64,000 nucleotides of DNA from an uncultured bacterium (GTDB lineage Bacteria; Verrucomicrobiota; Kiritimatiellia; PWTM01). The stretch lies in assembly GCA_938010045.1 (NCBI GenBank), contig CALLFZ010000018.1:1-64000 (forward strand). Reading direction: 5' to 3'. A model generated the notes under the pieces. It was not told the origin of the DNA, did not search any database, and worked only from the letters and a program-made list of their open reading frames with translations. Positions 12,391-25,425 of the stretch are shown in pieces. Numbering within the stretch: position 1 is the first letter of the stretch; each line of letters begins with the position of its first letter. The translations under genes and the position numbers were made by a program.

Positions 12391-12458
12391 GTAGTTCCGC
12401 CGGTCCCCCGGCGGAAGGAATGGGCGGAAAATCTCCGGCGGCAGAGCGCCGGAGCTAC
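12391..12458. repeat. REP-like hairpin pair in inverted orientation (BIME-like)
   Basis: The first element has GTAG at 12391-12394 followed directly by a perfect 9-bp stem, TTCCGCCGG/CCGGCGGAA, with a 4-base loop (12395-12416). The second is in the opposite orientation: an 8-bp stem CTCCGGCG/CGCCGGAG with a 6-base loop at 12433-12454, followed by CTAC (12455-12458), which is GTAG on the other strand. A conserved GTAG or GTGG at the foot of an imperfect palindrome is the known mark of REP sequences processed by RAYT (TnpA-REP) transposases, and head-to-head pairs are known as BIMEs. The same second hairpin recurs at 23.3 and 23.77 kb. Confidence 0.7.
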
Positions 12459-12479
12459 AGCAGAGCGCCGGAGCTACAG
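12442..12479. repeat. 19-bp tandem duplication of a REP half
   Basis: CAGAGCGCCGGAGCTACAG is present twice head to tail, 12442-12460 and 12461-12479. The unit is the right half of the REP-like hairpin plus its CTAC foot, so the second copy is a half-element. Confidence 0.8.
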
Positions 12480-18743: not shown

Positions 18744-20380
18744 TCGCGCGGGCGCTCGCGCAGACGATCGGCTGGGCGGCGCTCGCCGCAGGGGCGCTCG
18801 CCGCCGCGCCGGACCGCGCGCTGTACACGGCGGAAATGCTGGCGCTGCGGACCGCGCTCTCGAATGAGCTGGCCGCCGCCGAAGCCCGCGTGCGCGAGCT
18901 GCAGGCGGACACATTGCGCCAGGCGCAGCGGGACTGGGACGCCGAACTGGCTGAGCGCCGGCGTACGCGGAATATTCGGGGCATCGCGGTGGCCGAGGAT
19001 GCGCGCGCCGCGATCCAGCGCATGCTCGACGGGCTGGCCTCCACCGGACGTCTCGAGTGGCCGACGAACCTTCGTCGCGAACTTAACGAGGCATTCGAAC
19101 AGTTGCGGGCCAAACTGGATGCTGCCGAACGCCGCGCGCGCGAATCGGCAGCCACGAGCGAGGCCGCCGCGATCGAGCGGTTTCGCACTGCCGCCACCCG
19201 CGCGGGCGCCCAACTGCCGCCCGATCCGGAGGCGCTCCGCTCCCAATTCCACGCGTGGCTGCGAGACCCCCTACCCGCTCACGAACCTCAACCGGCAGCC
19301 AGTGCAACTGCGGCGCGCCGCACCTCCGCCGCCCCGACCGGAGCCACCGTCGCCGACCAGCCCCCCGCAGCCCGTCCAGAACCGCCGGAGTTCTTCGCAC
19401 AGTCCCGCGCCGGCACCGACTGGATCCCCATCGGCACCTGGCGCGCGGAATCCCGCGGACCCGATGTGTTCGAAATCAACGTGTTTGGCGCGCCGGGCGA
19501 ACGGCGGGGCGAACAGCCGAATCCGATCCTCGGCCGCGCCACGACGTGGACCTGGCGGCAGGAGCACGAGGTGAAGCCGGGCGTCTACTCTTGGCGGCTG
19601 CGGCGACTGGGCACATCGGATGTGGTGGACGTAGTGGAATGGCCATCGCCGGCCAATGAAGGACGGCTCGTGTTTCGAACGCGCATGCCCCAACGCCTTC
19701 CCGCGCAGACGGCCTTCGAGGTCCAGTATTCTGTCGCCAAACTGATCGCGCTCGAGATCAAGACCGACCCGCCGGGCGCCCTCGTCGAGATCAACGGGCA
19801 GCCCTGGCGTGATGGTCTGCGTGACGTGCGCACCCCCTGCACCGTCCATGTCCCACCGGGCACGATCTCGATGAAACTCTCCCTCGATGGCTACGAGGAC
19901 GCCGTCGCGCCCAGCCTGCGAGTGGACTCGAACCGCGTGATCGCCGTGAAACTGGCCCCCCTGAAAGATGCGCCGGGGCGGACCGTCACCGTCAATCCCC
20001 AAGAGATTTGGGCCAACTCCGGCATTACGGTCAAACGCGGCGACCGGATCCGACTAGCGGTCGAAGGCGAATGGAGCTGCGGCGCGCGAGGTGAAATGAC
20101 GGGCCCTCAGGGCTACGATCCGCGAGACCTGAGGTTCAGCCATTATTACCTCGACGAACAGGGTTCTCCCAAACAACTCGACTCGGCGCCGTACGGCGCG
20201 TTGCTCGCCCGCATCGGCACCAACCCAATCGTCGCGGTCGGCAAATCGGCAGGCTTTATCGCCGGCGCCGACGGTCCGCTGTTGTTCGACATCAACGAGA
20301 AGCCCGAACCTGCACTGCGTCGCAACAACCGCGGCGCGCTCAAGGTCAACGTACTCGTGCAGCCAGGCGGCGGACTGTGA
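18740..20380 (+). CDS. Exported coiled-coil, PEGA and lectin-like protein
   Basis: A 546-residue exported protein (signal residues 1-23, GALAAAP). Residues about 25-165 are charged and helical with Glu/Arg/Ala heptads, consistent with a coiled coil. A Pro/Ala/Thr linker follows. Residues about 336-405 form a PEGA-type beta domain (IALEIKTDPPGALVEINGQPW ... LSLDGYEDAV), typical of surface proteins. The last 135 residues (NPQEIWANSGITVKRGDRIRLAVEGEWSCG, YGALLARIG, AGFIAGADGPLLFDINE) resemble the LecA/PA-IL galactose-binding fold. The architecture suggests a cell-surface adhesin or glycan-binding scaffold; function is inferred. It overlaps both neighbours by four bases. Confidence 0.75.
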   Translation: MIARALAQTIGWAALAAGALAAAPDRALYTAEMLALRTALSNELAAAEARVRELQADTLRQAQRDWDAELAERRRTRNIRGIAVAEDARAAIQRMLDGLASTGRLEWPTNLRRELNEAFEQLRAKLDAAERRARESAATSEAAAIERFRTAATRAGAQLPPDPEALRSQFHAWLRDPLPAHEPQPAASATAARRTSAAPTGATVADQPPAARPEPPEFFAQSRAGTDWIPIGTWRAESRGPDVFEINVFGAPGERRGEQPNPILGRATTWTWRQEHEVKPGVYSWRLRRLGTSDVVDVVEWPSPANEGRLVFRTRMPQRLPAQTAFEVQYSVAKLIALEIKTDPPGALVEINGQPWRDGLRDVRTPCTVHVPPGTISMKLSLDGYEDAVAPSLRVDSNRVIAVKLAPLKDAPGRTVTVNPQEIWANSGITVKRGDRIRLAVEGEWSCGARGEMTGPQGYDPRDLRFSHYYLDEQGSPKQLDSAPYGALLARIGTNPIVAVGKSAGFIAGADGPLLFDINEKPEPALRRNNRGALKVNVLVQPGGGL

Positions 20381-21483
20381 CGGACGTATGCCGCAAGCGT
20401 GCGCTGCTGTTGGTAGCCGCGTACGCGGTGGCGTCTCCAACTGTGAAGGCGATGGCGGCGTCGAATCCGTCCCCCTCTGCCTTCAGCGGCGACGCGCGGT
20501 TGCGCATCGAGCTGCGCGAGTCTGACGCCGCCCACGAGACGCTTCGTGGCCGCTTACGCCTGCGCGAGGAGCTTCGTGTGGACGGCGAGGGGGGCTGGGC
20601 GCTCGCACTCGGCTTGAGCACCGGACGCCGCGGAGATCCTCGTGATCCGGATTGGTGGCTAGGCAACGGCGCACCCGAAGCCATCGTCCGCCCCAGTCCG
20701 GCTTGGCTGCGCTGGCGCGCATCGGAGGGCGACCATACGGCGTCCATCACAGCGGGACGCCTACCGATGCCCTGTTTGCGCGTTCACGATCTCGTGTTCG
20801 ACGGTGACTGGCATCCGATCGGTCTCTCCGCCGACGGTTCCCTGGGCCCCGGCAACGCGATGGTACGCGCGCACGTCGGCACGTTCTGGCTGATGGACAT
20901 GGGCGAGCCGGCCTGGCGTCTGCACACCGCCCAGGTGGCCTGGGATTGGATGCCGTCCCGCGAATGGCGGGGACTCTTCGGCGGCTCGCTGTTTTGGCAC
21001 TCGCACGGAGATGGACAGTTGCCCCCGCTTTCACCGGCCCGGGCACTCGGCAACTGGTTATCCCGGGATCCGGCCGACGGGCGCGAACGGCTCACGACGG
21101 ACTTTCATCTGGTCGAAGGCTTTGCGCTCCTCACATGGGATCCATGGCTGCCGCTGACGGGGTTCGGGCAAACCGTGGCGAATGCCGCGGCATCGTCGCA
21201 GCGGACCGGCTGGCTGGTGGGTGTATCTGTGGGCGCCGTGCGCGCCGTGGGAGGCGTCGAGCTCGGCTGGTCGTACCGCGAGCTACAGGCCGATGCTGCG
21301 CTCGCGTCGCTGGCCGACTCCGATTTTGGCGGCACGGCGTTGCATGCTCATCGCGTCCACCTGCGCTGGCAGCCCATTCGCAATGTATGGCTGTCGTGTT
21401 CGTGGCGCACCGTCCATCCCCTCGGCGCCAGCGGCCCCACCCCCTTCGCCCTCTGGCAGGCCGACCTCCTCTGGCGCTTCTGA
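20377..21483 (+). CDS. Putative outer-membrane porin
   Basis: A 368-residue exported protein with repeated amphipathic strands and aromatic girdles (WALALGLSTGRRG, HTASITAGRLPMP, MVRAHVGTFWLMDM, VHLRWQPIRNVWLSCSWRTV) and a C-terminal aromatic residue, DLLWRF, the usual signal for insertion by the BAM machinery. It is thus a likely beta-barrel of about 14-16 strands, of no recognised substrate. The start is a GTG at 20377 that overlaps the previous stop (GTGA); the signal peptide KRALLLVAAYAVASPTVKAMA follows. As the last gene of the module it may be the membrane channel or anchor for the lectin-like protein. Confidence 0.7.
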   Translation: MTDVCRKRALLLVAAYAVASPTVKAMAASNPSPSAFSGDARLRIELRESDAAHETLRGRLRLREELRVDGEGGWALALGLSTGRRGDPRDPDWWLGNGAPEAIVRPSPAWLRWRASEGDHTASITAGRLPMPCLRVHDLVFDGDWHPIGLSADGSLGPGNAMVRAHVGTFWLMDMGEPAWRLHTAQVAWDWMPSREWRGLFGGSLFWHSHGDGQLPPLSPARALGNWLSRDPADGRERLTTDFHLVEGFALLTWDPWLPLTGFGQTVANAAASSQRTGWLVGVSVGAVRAVGGVELGWSYRELQADAALASLADSDFGGTALHAHRVHLRWQPIRNVWLSCSWRTVHPLGASGPTPFALWQADLLWRF

Positions 21484-22142
21484 TTTCGTACCCACTAATT
21501 TCCGACTTTGCGGTTGAGGAGAGTCTGGGTTGAACACGTCTCTCATGCATCTCGGCGTTGCAACCGAATCACAGAAGCTCTAAAGCTGCAGTACGATCAA
21601 TTGGAAACACGAGCGGCTCGGCTAGCGTCACATTCAGATTGCGTTCACCGAGCAACAGTTCACGGCACGGGCGTGGCGTGTTCGGTGGCATCGAAGTTTC
21701 TATAGCGAATTCGGTTTCGAGCACGGGCGCCAGCACATCGGCCGGGCAGGAGCAGGCGCCGAACGCGAACGGCACCCCCGAAAAGGCGCCCGCGATCCCC
21801 AGACGTCGCTCGCCGCAGCGCCCGGCGCACTGCATGAGGGCGCCGCGTGCGGGACCGCCGCCCGCCCTCGAACATCCGCTAGGGATGGGAGGCGTAGTCG
21901 GCGCCGCAATCAGCAGCCGTTCAATCGCCCTGCGGTGGCCCCAAAGGACTCAACGTCAAGGTGGAATCGAGGTGGGCGCAGACAATGAAATGACCGCCCT
22001 ACCATGGATCGAAGATGAACACCACCTCACTTGATCGCATAGTGAGCCCGCATCGGTCTGCCCCAACGCCGAGGTGGCACGAAGGATGGCGCAGTCCGCG
22101 AGCTTGGATGGCCATCAAGTCCGGAACAGTCGTTGGCTCACA
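21484..22142. other. Gene-free interval, possible gene relic
   Basis: No gene is supported in these 660 bases. On the minus strand at 21569-21835 an 88-codon frame stays open with a non-random looking composition (ERNLNVTLAEPLVFPIDRTAALELL), but it lacks a ribosome-binding site and I recognise no family; it could be the remnant of a decayed gene. The 3' end of the tRNA-Pro gene faces this interval. Confidence 0.4.
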
Positions 22143-22220
22143 TGGTCGGGGCGACGGGATTTGAACCCGTGACCTCTTGCACCCCAAGCAAGCGCGCTAG
22201 CCAGTCTGCGCCACGCCCCG
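22143..22220 (-). tRNA. tRNA-Pro, anticodon GGG, CCA encoded
   Basis: On the minus strand the sequence folds into a full cloverleaf: acceptor CGGGGCG (22220-22214) pairs with CGCCCCG at the 3' end, the T arm contains GGTTCAAATCC, and the anticodon stem CTTGC/GCAAG encloses the loop TTGGGGT, giving anticodon GGG, which reads proline CCC codons. The discriminator A (22146) is followed by an encoded CCA at 22145-22143. The gene sits at the edge of the repeat- and IS-rich patch. Confidence 0.95.
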
Positions 22221-22633
22221 AACTCCAACGCTTGAAGCTATCACGGCGCCCCCGCCGCGGTCAACGAGAAGCCTCATCATTCGCTGCCGATTGCGCTGTG
22301 GAAAATGAGCGGCAAATACAGGCGCCGGCGAAGTGAGGCGAACAGCGTTCGCCCCAACGACCCCGCACCATTCCCTGTCAGTCATGTGGTCTTGCGAGAG
22401 AGGTGGACATCATGGTGTCGCGGGGCATCGTTCGGGCCAGTGAGTGGCAGTGAGCAACCGACTGGCGGCGACACGGGAGAGGCTCGGAGAGACGCATGGG
22501 GGTATTATCCCCTTCTCTGTCTGAGCGACGGTGAGCGACGAGGGACCTCACTCCCGTGGGGCTCCACCCCCCGGATGCCTGGATGCAGCGTGGCCGCCTG
22601 CCCCCGCAGACACCAATGCTTAAGGACGACACG
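22221..22633. other. Gene-free interval between tRNA-Pro and IS110 relic
   Basis: No gene or recognisable RNA. The composition is mixed and short frames are unrelated to known proteins. The left boundary of the IS110-like remnant is probably within this stretch, but I see no inverted repeats, as expected for IS110-type elements, which lack them. Confidence 0.4.
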
Positions 22634-23215
22634 ATGAGCGAAGAAAAACAGGCACAGAGAGTGATCGAGCTGGACGCGCACCCGTACCTGTTCAGCACCG
22701 CAGCGTTGCCGGGGGCGGATGCGCTCGAGGCCCGAGAAGAGTGGGTGCTGGATCGAGTACCGCTGCAACGGCTGTAGGCGGCGCTGCGCCCGAGGGTTCG
22801 TCCGGGGGACGGGGTGGTGTTGGAGGCCAGCGGCGATTCGTTCGCGATAGCCGAACGGCTGGCCGTCTTGGGCCTCCTCGTCCAAGTCCTCGACAGCGAG
22901 TCGGTGAGGCGGTTCGGTTGGCCGTACTGCGCGACCAACCGGTTGGTCGCAGTGAAACTACTGGCGTACGTGTATCTCAGCGGCTTTGTCCACGTCGTTT
23001 GGCCCCCCGACGCCCAAAGCCAGGAGCGCCCGGAGTTGTTCTTTGCTCATCGCAACGCGGTTTGTGACGCGGTGTGCGCCGCACCGGTTCTGGGCATGGT
23101 GCAACGAACACGAGGCCGCGCGAGTCCGCAGGTTTCGTTTGAGCGCTCCCAACGCCCCGAAAATCGTATTGGGTTGGAAAAACTGGACTCCGACCCCACA
23201 GATGATCCTCGATTT
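22634..23215 (+). pseudogene. Broken IS110-family transposase
   Basis: The first frame opens at ATG 22634 with RVIELDAHPYLFSTAALPG, the region of the first catalytic Asp of the DEDD domain, and after an in-frame TAG at 22775-22777 continues with GDGVVLEASGDSFAIAERLAVLG, FGWPYCATNRLVAVKL and the VYLSGFVHVVWPPDAQSQERPELFFAHRNAV block typical of IS110 transposases. Near 23076 the match shifts to another frame (RFWAWCNEH, RLSAPNAPKIVLGWKNWTPTPQMILDLV). It then stops at 23216, exactly where a 150-bp repeat begins; the C-terminal serine-containing domain is missing. One stop, one frameshift and truncation make it non-functional. Confidence 0.85.
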
Positions 23216-23365
23216 GGTGCCTCTGCGCTGAGGCTGGCGATCTGCGAAGCCGCCATCTGAGGCGTGCACGGCTGGCCTGCTCGTTTCCACGACGCTGTGG
23301 CTCCGGCGCTCCGCCGCCGGAGCGCTGCATGTCAGCCGGCAGGGTTGCCAAATGCCTGTCCCCAT
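23216..23365. repeat. 150-bp repeat, copy 1
   Basis: Identical in length to 23681-23830 with only about eight differences. It begins GGTGCCTCTGCGCTGAGGCT and ends in TGCCTGTCCCCAT. Inside is a REP-like hairpin with foot GTGG (23297-23300), stem CTCCGGCG/CGCCGGAG and loop CTCCGC (23301-23322). It abuts the truncated IS110 transposase with no intervening base. Confidence 0.9.
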
Positions 23366-24205
23366 TGGCGCCGCACGGGCTAGGGCTCGCAGGTGCCTGT
23401 CCCCATGGCTAGGGCTAGTGGGGACGGCTAGTGGGGACAGGCACGTAACTTTGGCACGTAACTTTCTCTGGGGGCGCAGAGTCATCGTGGGGAGCGTCGT
23501 GGGGACAGGCACCTCTCTGGACCAGTACCCGTCCCCGGTCTTCCTCAACGGTCTTCGAATGGGGACTGGCAGAAGCGCAGAATACGCAACAATATCGTCT
23601 TCAATCCACTGCGGCTTCGTGCCTGGTGCCTGTCCGCATCGTGTTTGGTGTCTGCGTGTCTGGTGCCTGTCCCCATTTGGGGTGCCTCTGCGCTGAGGCT
23701 GGCGATCTGCGAAGCCGCCATCTGCGGCGGGCACGGCTGGCCTGCTCGTTTCCACGACGCTGTAGCTCCGGCGCTCCGCCGCCGGAGCGCTGCATGTGAG
23801 CCGGCAGGGTCGCCCAGTGCCTGTCCCCATGGGCCCCGCAGGTGCCTGTCCCCATTGGGCCCCATTGGGCCCCTGGTTCTGGATTGGGGACGGGCACATG
23901 CGCAGGCAACACAATGATCGCGCCTTCAATTGTAACTTCTTGATCTACTGTGAAATTTTGTCGGGCGCCTGTCCCTGTCCGGTGCCTCGATCGATACCCT
24001 GATGTTGGGGACAGGCACCTCGGCTGGCCATTGGGGTCAGGCAACTCGCGGGCTTCTGGGCACAGGCACGTCGTGTCGGCGGTGTACCTAGCGTTGGGTG
24101 CTTCCCCTCAGCCGGCATGGGGACAGGCACCTCCCTCTCGCATGGGGACAGGCACCTCTCTCCTATCGGAACGCAGGGTGGCTGGCTTGTGCCTGTCCCC
24201 GGTCC
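23346..24205. repeat. Cluster of GTGCCTGTCCCC 12-mers in both orientations
   Basis: Ten exact copies: plus orientation at 23393, 23663, 23817, 23842 and 24189; minus orientation (GGGGACAGGCAC) at 23433, 23501, 24007, 24119 and 24144. One-mismatch copies start at 23352, 23626, 23886 and 24058. Most are extended on the same side by A or G before GTGCC and by CAT or CT outside. Spacing is irregular (25 to 160 bases). A 45-bp block beginning with this motif is repeated at 23561 and 23886. No gene is supported in this interval. Similar GGGGACAGGCAC-type repeats are, as far as I recall, common in environmental bacterial genomes near Y1 transposases, but none is present here. Confidence 0.9.
23681..23830. 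repeat. 150-bp repeat, copy 2
   Basis: Second copy of the unit at 23216-23365, same orientation, 465 bases downstream. The REP-like hairpin here has the foot GTAG (23762-23765), stem CTCCGGCG/CGCCGGAG and loop CTCCGC (23766-23787). Differences from copy 1 are scattered and include GTAG for GTGG and GTGAGCC for GTCAGCC. Confidence 0.9.
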
Positions 24206-24651
24206 GCTGCTTCCGTCCGCGATTGGGGACTCGCCCAAGCGCAACATCAGCGAGGGGCAACCTGGACTATGGGCACGCTGGGCCCCGTGAATCGCCGATG
24301 CCAGCCACCATCATGGTGGTCAAGTCCTGCTGGCATCCGATCCGCCCCCCTCACCCGAATCCGCAGTTTAGATGCCACCCCGGCCCGCCTGTAGCGTCGG
24401 TGCTCCACCGAGCCACTCGTACCCCATGCCCCTCGATGCGTTCACGCTTCGCCGCCGGACGGATGCACCTTCCCATCCCCGGGGACCAACGCCTCCCGTC
24501 TCTAACCCACCGAGTCCCCGGCAAGTCAATGAGACGGGCACACCGCCATATTCATCTGCCGGCTTTTCAATCCCTTTTCCTGTCAGTATCTTGTTTTCGC
24601 GATCGCGGCGGTGGCAGAACGGGCGCCGCGGCCGGCAAGGAGGACCACAGC
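24206..24651. other. Gene-free interval upstream of the barrel gene
   Basis: No gene. Apart from a partial copy near 24225 of the block that follows the repeat 12-mer (GGGGACT...AAGCGCAAC), it holds only the likely promoter and ribosome-binding site of the barrel gene at 24652. Confidence 0.5.
24564..24592 (+). promoter_or_regulatory. Possible sigma70-type promoter of the barrel gene
   Basis: TTTTCA (24564-24569), a 17-base spacer and TATCTT (24587-24592) lie 60 bases upstream of the ATG at 24652, in an AT-richer patch than the surroundings. The ribosome-binding site AAGGAGG is at 24638-24644. Confidence 0.35.
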
Positions 24652-25425
24652 ATGAGCAAGAAACTCGTGAGAACGTTCGTTGCACTGACATGGATTGCGC
24701 TGTTCGGCGTCGCCAGGGCGGACGACTGGCGGGTCGGAATTCGCGGCGGACTCGCGGTTCCACGCCTGCGCGGCGGCGGCAACGAGATTAGCCGCGGCTA
24801 CGAATCCATTCTGGCGCCCAACCTCGGGGTGCTCGTCGAGCGTGACCTCGACCCGCATTGGTCGCTCACCCTCGAAGCGGTCTACAGTGTGCAGGGCGGA
24901 GAGCGTGATGAGCTGCAACCGATCACCGCCGACCTGCCCGGTCTGCCGCCGATGCCGCCGGGACGCTACCTCTACGCCGATATCAAGAACCGCAGTGAAC
25001 TCCAATACCTTGAAATCCCGCTCCTCGCGAAGTGGCGGACGAAGCTCGCGGAGGATTGGCACTTCGTGGTGCTGGGCGGCCCCTATGCGGGCTTTCTGCT
25101 GCACGCCGAGCAGAAAACGCGCGGCACCAGCCGGATTGCTCTCGATCAGAATGGCACTCCCTTGGTCATTGGCCGTCAGCCTTTGCCGCCGGTCTCGTTC
25201 GATCGCGACACCGACGTCACCGACGAACTCCACACCTTCAACTGGGGACTCACCGGCGGGATCGGTCTGCTTTGGGATGTCGCCGACGGCCATCGGCTGA
25301 CGTTCGAAGTACGGGGGCAGTACGGGTTCCGCGAGGTACAAAAAGACAAGACCAACGGCGAGAGCCACACCGGCGCGGCCCTCTTCCTGATCGGCTATCA
25401 ATACCGCTTCACGTCGCACCCCTAA
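24652..25425 (+). CDS. Outer-membrane beta-barrel protein (PorT-like)
   Basis: A 257-residue exported protein (signal MSKKLVRTFVALTWIALFGVARA) of the small outer-membrane beta-barrel type. The strands alternate as in eight-stranded barrels: WRVGIRGGLAVPRL, APNLGVLVERDL, WSLTLEAVYSVQGG, LQYLEIPLLAKWRTKL, WHFVVLGGPYAGFLL, FNWGLTGGIGLLW, LTFEVRGQYGF, ending GAALFLIGYQYRFTSHP. The phrase LEIPLLAKW is characteristic of PorT-type domains. A strong AAGGAGG seven bases before the ATG fixes the start although the frame is open further upstream through the repeat cluster. No substrate or partner can be inferred; it stands alone. Confidence 0.85.
   Translation: MSKKLVRTFVALTWIALFGVARADDWRVGIRGGLAVPRLRGGGNEISRGYESILAPNLGVLVERDLDPHWSLTLEAVYSVQGGERDELQPITADLPGLPPMPPGRYLYADIKNRSELQYLEIPLLAKWRTKLAEDWHFVVLGGPYAGFLLHAEQKTRGTSRIALDQNGTPLVIGRQPLPPVSFDRDTDVTDELHTFNWGLTGGIGLLWDVADGHRLTFEVRGQYGFREVQKDKTNGESHTGAALFLIGYQYRFTSHP

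Follow-up and report, generated by a model that had tools for sequence, protein, structure and literature searches.

What has gathered so many copies of one 12-mer, GTGCCTGTCCCC (GGGGACAGGCAC as read on the other strand), into a single intergenic region of the window (the whole stretch of DNA analysed, 64,000 nucleotides)? An earlier note on this DNA, made from the sequence alone, had proposed either a site at which a mobile short repeat lands or a protein-binding array. Here, we report that the cluster belongs to a set of dozens of such intergenic arrays, the 12-mer being hugely expanded in this genome, and we describe the Y1 transposase genes that related motifs flank elsewhere, the duplications by which the arrays may have grown, and the repeat systems that they resemble.

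The array and its copies across the genome

The cluster at 23352-24200 contained 10 exact and four one-mismatch copies of the 12-mer, a recount that agreed with the earlier one, and all exact copies in the window (10/10) lay inside it; a degenerate copy at 55-66 was also found again. Four further copies with two mismatches (23525, 23561 on the minus strand, 23965, and 24033 on the minus strand) also lay in the array (Table 1), and the window as a whole held 22 copies with two mismatches or fewer, against 9.5 expected. Predicted genes at 20377-21480 and 24652-25422 flanked the array, and a tRNA gene lay nearby (22146-22220). Copies occurred on both strands at irregular spacings (1 to >170 bases), as the earlier note had described, which rules out a CRISPR array; orientation and spacing, together with the avoidance of genes described below, also rule out a simple tandem repeat. 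Two 13-bp half-unit duplications stood on either side of one motif.

Table 1. Positions of the array, its motif copies, and its duplicated or recurring units in the window.
Feature	Position	Strand	Remark
Whole array, intergenic	23346..24243		14 copies with one mismatch or none, four with two
Motif, one mismatch	23352..23363	+	
Motif, exact	23393..23404	+	
Motif, exact	23433..23444	-	
Motif, exact	23501..23512	-	
Motif, one mismatch	23626..23637	+	
Motif, exact	23663..23674	+	
Motif, exact	23817..23828	+	
Motif, exact	23842..23853	+	25 bp past the copy at 23817
Motif, one mismatch	23886..23897	-	
Motif, exact	24007..24018	-	
Motif, one mismatch	24058..24069	-	
Motif, exact	24119..24130	-	
Motif, exact	24144..24155	-	25 bp past the copy at 24119
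Motif, exact	24189..24200	+	
Half-unit tandem duplication, GGCTAGTGGGGAC twice	23413..23438	-	Breaks at GGGGAC|AGGCAC of motif 23433
Half-unit tandem duplication, GGCACGTAACTTT twice	23440..23465	-	Other half of motif 23433; breaks GTGCC|TGTCCCC
10-bp tandem duplication, CCCCATTGGG	23850..23873	+	At the 3' half of motif 23842
77-bp unit	23561..23637		Inverted pair of degenerate motifs, 53-nt core between; core recurs at other arrays
48-bp unit	23525..23572		Two inverted motifs, 24 nt between; relatives at other arrays
Further copy of 48-55 bp unit	24189..24243	+	
160-bp segment, copy one	23216..23375	+	Runs into motif
160-bp segment, copy two	23681..23840	+	94% identical to 23216-23375; runs into motif

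A genome-wide count, which the earlier note had proposed, gave 460 exact copies in the 3.2-Mb assembly (232 + 228; reversed-pattern control, 0), in intergenic arrays. Copies, genes, and duplications were counted in 935 kb of the assembly, a sample picked partly because it bore the motif. This sample held 64 clusters, each with 1-18 copies, which added up to 236 exact copies and 105 with one mismatch. Not one of the 236 lay inside a predicted gene, though simple codon-usage calls predicted 78% of that DNA to be coding; the uniform frequency, genes included, that the earlier note had named as speaking against its reading was thus not what we found. Exact copies made up 69% of those with at most one mismatch. 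In aligned copies, the 12 conserved bases were followed by A in 86 of 105 cases, with weak preferences farther out. A single unit formed no hairpin, its folding energies being those obtained with flanks exchanged between copies, and the aligned copies showed neither a conserved larger palindromic REP around the motif nor a GT[AG]G tag. A literature search for the 12-mer found no paper.

Unit cores recurred across loci (77-bp core at 11, 48-bp at 5, 68-bp at 4), and the motif probably disperses as inverted pairs. Of the contig ends seen in the assembly, 22 of 56 adjoined a motif, and arrays thus explain some of the fragmentation of assemblies of this kind.

Relatives of the genome and Y1 genes linked to the motif

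Within the genus, exact copies numbered 460 in this genome, 30 in G002, 1 in G001, and 0 in G003, and among 58 near relatives only G002 had many. Across 388 genomes from this phylum (Verrucomicrobiota broadly defined; matches that carry names were mostly assemblies of Kiritimatiellae and Lentisphaerae), at least 10 copies were present in five (this genome, G002, G305 with 29, G389 with 14, and G395 with 10), and the remainder had 0-4 each. The distribution is patchy, as the enriched genomes come from different families. Some motif sites (L181/L039) seem common to G002 and this genome; others (L109/L150) do not (proteins ~60-80% identical). No empty site was seen, genus relatives being ~70-77% identical and the window region rearranged in G001, so movement of copies to new places is something that we infer. 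As to mobile carriers, a two-motif array was absent from the viral contigs searched, and the cluster had no match in plasmids or phages. Synteny with G001 broke at window positions 21480-24652, where the upstream gene and tRNA matched its contig C20 and the downstream membrane-protein gene matched C17.

A Y1 transposase gene lay on the same contig as motif copies in G395 and G305. A protein search with this transposase found relatives in 64 of the 388 phylum genomes; exact motifs were within ~2 kb of the transposase in G305, G389, and G033, and near-exact ones in G395. A scan of named genomes yielded 80 transposase loci, and of the 39 loci tested, 28 had a repeated 10-mer (.GGGAC[AG]...) in their flanks (0.2 in shuffles; 1/32 at a distance of 1.5-2.5 kb). 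In these other genomes, motif copies pointed inward both upstream (62/66) and downstream (38/44) and flanked both sides at 14 of 32 transposase loci; with copies facing inward on both sides, the loci have the layout of terminal inverted repeats. The motif varied by gene (GGGGACAGGCA, GGGACAGGTAC, GGGACAGGTGAA, GGGACACAGAAA, GGGACAGAGA, GGGACAGACAC, GGGACGGGCT), and the tree of the transposases grouped like variants together (22 changes, where shuffling gave a mean of 29.0), a pattern to which host kinship may contribute. The motif itself, or a relative with GGGAC[AG] in common, recurs as inward repeats around genes of a divergent Y1 (HUH) family in unrelated genomes.

H61xH63, Y159, and N163 (HUH and Tyr motifs) were invariant in 14 sequences of the transposase family. 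The NCBIfam model NF047646 (REP_Tyr_transpos) matched with 56 and 42.9 bits, below its curated cut-off of 80. TnpAY1 subclass 2.1 is marked by a C-terminal helix-turn-helix/DnaA-like domain; for the two intact members examined here, Pfam returned only Y1_Tnp, and the predicted model of the transposase had a helical C-terminal part. The best sequence-profile match was 4er8, the E. coli TnpA-REP, which was also the best Foldseek match of the predicted fold (E value, 9.6e-5). Judged by its sequence, the transposase is a divergent relative of RAYT.

The sole family member in our own genome (G000) was a pseudogene (C1:3555-4117; L072 1024-1770) with an in-frame TAG stop and one frameshift, beside a tRNA-like stretch (L072 1880-1957). 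It had no motif copies nearby and sat on a long tree branch, grouped with relatives bearing other motifs; we rejected it as a candidate, and it is probably not the cognate enzyme. The assembly held no intact family member, and G002 held no family member. The check for Y1 adjacency that the earlier note had suggested was therefore borne out in other genomes, where the motif adjoins Y1 genes, and failed in this one, where no copy stood beside an intact Y1 gene. With a pseudogene only, the active enzyme of this genome is therefore lost, unassembled, or different; given how many contig ends adjoin a motif, the assembly may have missed a short gene flanked by arrays.

Two further sets of Y1 genes were seen. 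Thermodesulfatator autotrophicus S606, from another phylum, had nine loci (L263-L271) of a distant family member, and GGGACAGGCA copies adjoined both of the loci examined. Another Y1 family of the same class (~335-350 aa; L061, L062, L064, L065, L067, and L070) was flanked by inverted GGGGTCAG.. or GGTGTCAG.. motifs, a sister case with the same architecture; the 350-aa genes of GGGGTCAG type were considered as partners of our motif and rejected, the architecture being alike and the motif different.

Breakpoints and the growth of arrays

Tandem duplications were many in the arrays, with 79 distinct events in the 935 kb, and were 12-15 bp or ~25 bp long (21 left half-units, 21 right half-units, 12 full units of mostly 22-28 bp, and 25 others). 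Their breakpoints formed three peaks, at the motif centre, ~13 bp before it, and ~13 bp after it, and 38 of the 79 events broke at the centre against 9.1 expected under a null of simple repositioning of events. All unambiguous left half-units (8/8) ended exactly at GTGCC|TGTCCCC, and 6 of 11 unambiguous right half-units started where the opposite strand reads GGGGAC|AGGCAC; in both kinds, the duplicated 12-15 nt sat 5' of the step, which was C|T or C|A. The outer breakpoint was fuzzy and had no sequence specificity. Junctions of half-units had no homology in 19 of 42 cases and at least 2 bp of it in about a third. At transposase loci of other genomes, which bear other motif variants, centre breaks were again in excess (20/46 against 8.2 expected) and the outer peak recurred; the G305/G389/G395 array set taken alone gave 8/18 against 5.0, which was not significant.

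TnpA-REP enzymes cut C|T in vitro, and one also cuts C|A (PMC8266576). That breakpoints fall on a single, exact position in the motif suggests where the enzyme cuts; the fuzzy outer breakpoint gives no sign of direct double cleavage by it. We hold with fair confidence that the motif marks the termini recognised by a divergent RAYT/TIRYT family, through whose nicking and rejoining the arrays expanded. The transposase would nick single-stranded motif DNA at the central C|T or C|A step, and the 3'-OH end would be rejoined or repaired to a site ~13 nt upstream, which would duplicate half a motif with its flank; duplication across both sides (~25 bp) would add whole motifs. Inverted pairs (48, 68, and 77 bp) would be REPIN-like units that transfer to new sites, and in this genome the enzyme would have come from a gene copy that has since been lost or that escaped assembly. 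The narrower proposal, that this is hairpin-less REP-like DNA amplifying in place as a Y1 enzyme nicks either strand and duplicates 12-15 nt or ~25 bp, has in our view an even chance of being right. If it is, arrays grow by transposase-driven tandem duplication, beyond insertion alone, and preserve a record of the cut site to the single base. The earlier idea of a mobile short repeat landing here is thus upheld in that the motif is a Y1 terminal repeat elsewhere, and needs amending in that the arrays also appear to grow in place, by internal duplications.

The arrays could instead be relics of a vanished transposase, repeat-rich intergenic DNA in which only ordinary slippage during replication and unequal recombination now bring change. 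Neither G000 nor G002 has an intact family transposase, as this account would have it, and slippage favours junctions with homology such as the third noted above; but it leaves a breakpoint at one exact motif step unexplained, the same pattern accompanies other motif variants in other genomes, many half-unit junctions (19/42) are free of homology, and the arrays are not old, since 69% of copies with one mismatch or none are exact. We judge relic arrays of this kind unlikely. Still less probable is an array kept by selection for protein binding or regulation (chromosome organisation, transcription end, or a supercoiling signal): it would suit the strictly intergenic location and the sharp conservation of 12 bases, and fits poorly with 460 copies in one species against 30, 1, and 0 in its genus, with patchiness in the phylum, with irregular spacing in both orientations, and with motifs that flank transposase genes in other genomes. 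The protein-binding array of the earlier note accordingly found no support, though the motif may have such a role secondarily. A DNA uptake signal like the 12-base DUS of Neisseria, which the length, the hundreds of copies, and some inverted pairs might recall, deserves almost no credence, as DNA uptake sequences also spread through genes, whereas orientation, spacing, dense arrays, and the avoidance of predicted genes (0/236) rule it out here.

The preferred reading, expansion by a transposase that recognises the motif, matters beyond this genome. The mechanisms by which REP-like repeats spread are poorly understood (PMC8266576). Natural arrays would yield a sharp prediction of the cut site for the whole transposase family, and co-varying pairs of transposase and motif open cutting, motif choice, and array growth to direct testing.

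Comparison with known repeat systems

In the TIRtron/TIRYT system, Y1 genes are flanked by inverted repeats with the consensus GGGGWSAS, and the repeat families are moderately abundant and clustered (Di Nocera et al. 2013, PMC3733652); TnpAY1 subclass 2.1 holds 20 of 26 TIRYTs (Quentin et al. 2018, PMC6006769). The likeness lies in a Y1/HUH gene within inverted GGGGWSAS-type repeats, with copies elsewhere as dimers or clusters, and GGGGACAG, present in all exact copies, fits the consensus. The differences are the 460 exact copies in dense arrays, where TIRtron families are "moderately abundant"; the centre-breaking 13/25-bp duplications, which we did not find described for TIRtrons (PMC3733652, PMC6006769); and a genome whose assembly has no intact cognate transposase. 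We class the repeats as behaving like those of a TIRtron family and do not claim a complete TIRtron.

With REP/BIME/REPIN sequences and their RAYTs, the motif shares an intergenic location, high copy number, both orientations, inverted pairs, a related HUH transposase (4er8 being the best fold match), and breakpoints at C|T or C|A. It differs in having no hairpin and no GTAG tag, in conserving only 12-13 bases, and in a predicted cut that lies inside the motif and not next to a hairpin. The HUH/Y1 catalytic fold is the same as that of IS200/IS605; unlike those elements, the present family has no terminal hairpins, has end motifs in large excess over the gene, and showed no mobile whole-element copies. 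On sequence grounds, the arrays are a hugely expanded, hairpin-less, REP-like family that fits the TIRYT/TIRtron class.

A second repeat, CTGTAGCTCCGGCGCTCCGCCGCCGGAGCG, resembles a canonical GTAG-tagged REP hairpin. It occurred in the window at 23293-23324, 23758-23789, and 12433-12461 and had 56 matches in the examined loci of this genome, 49 of them within 300 bp of an exact motif (such DNA being only 5.3% of the total), so that two kinds of repeat occupy the same intergenic sites.
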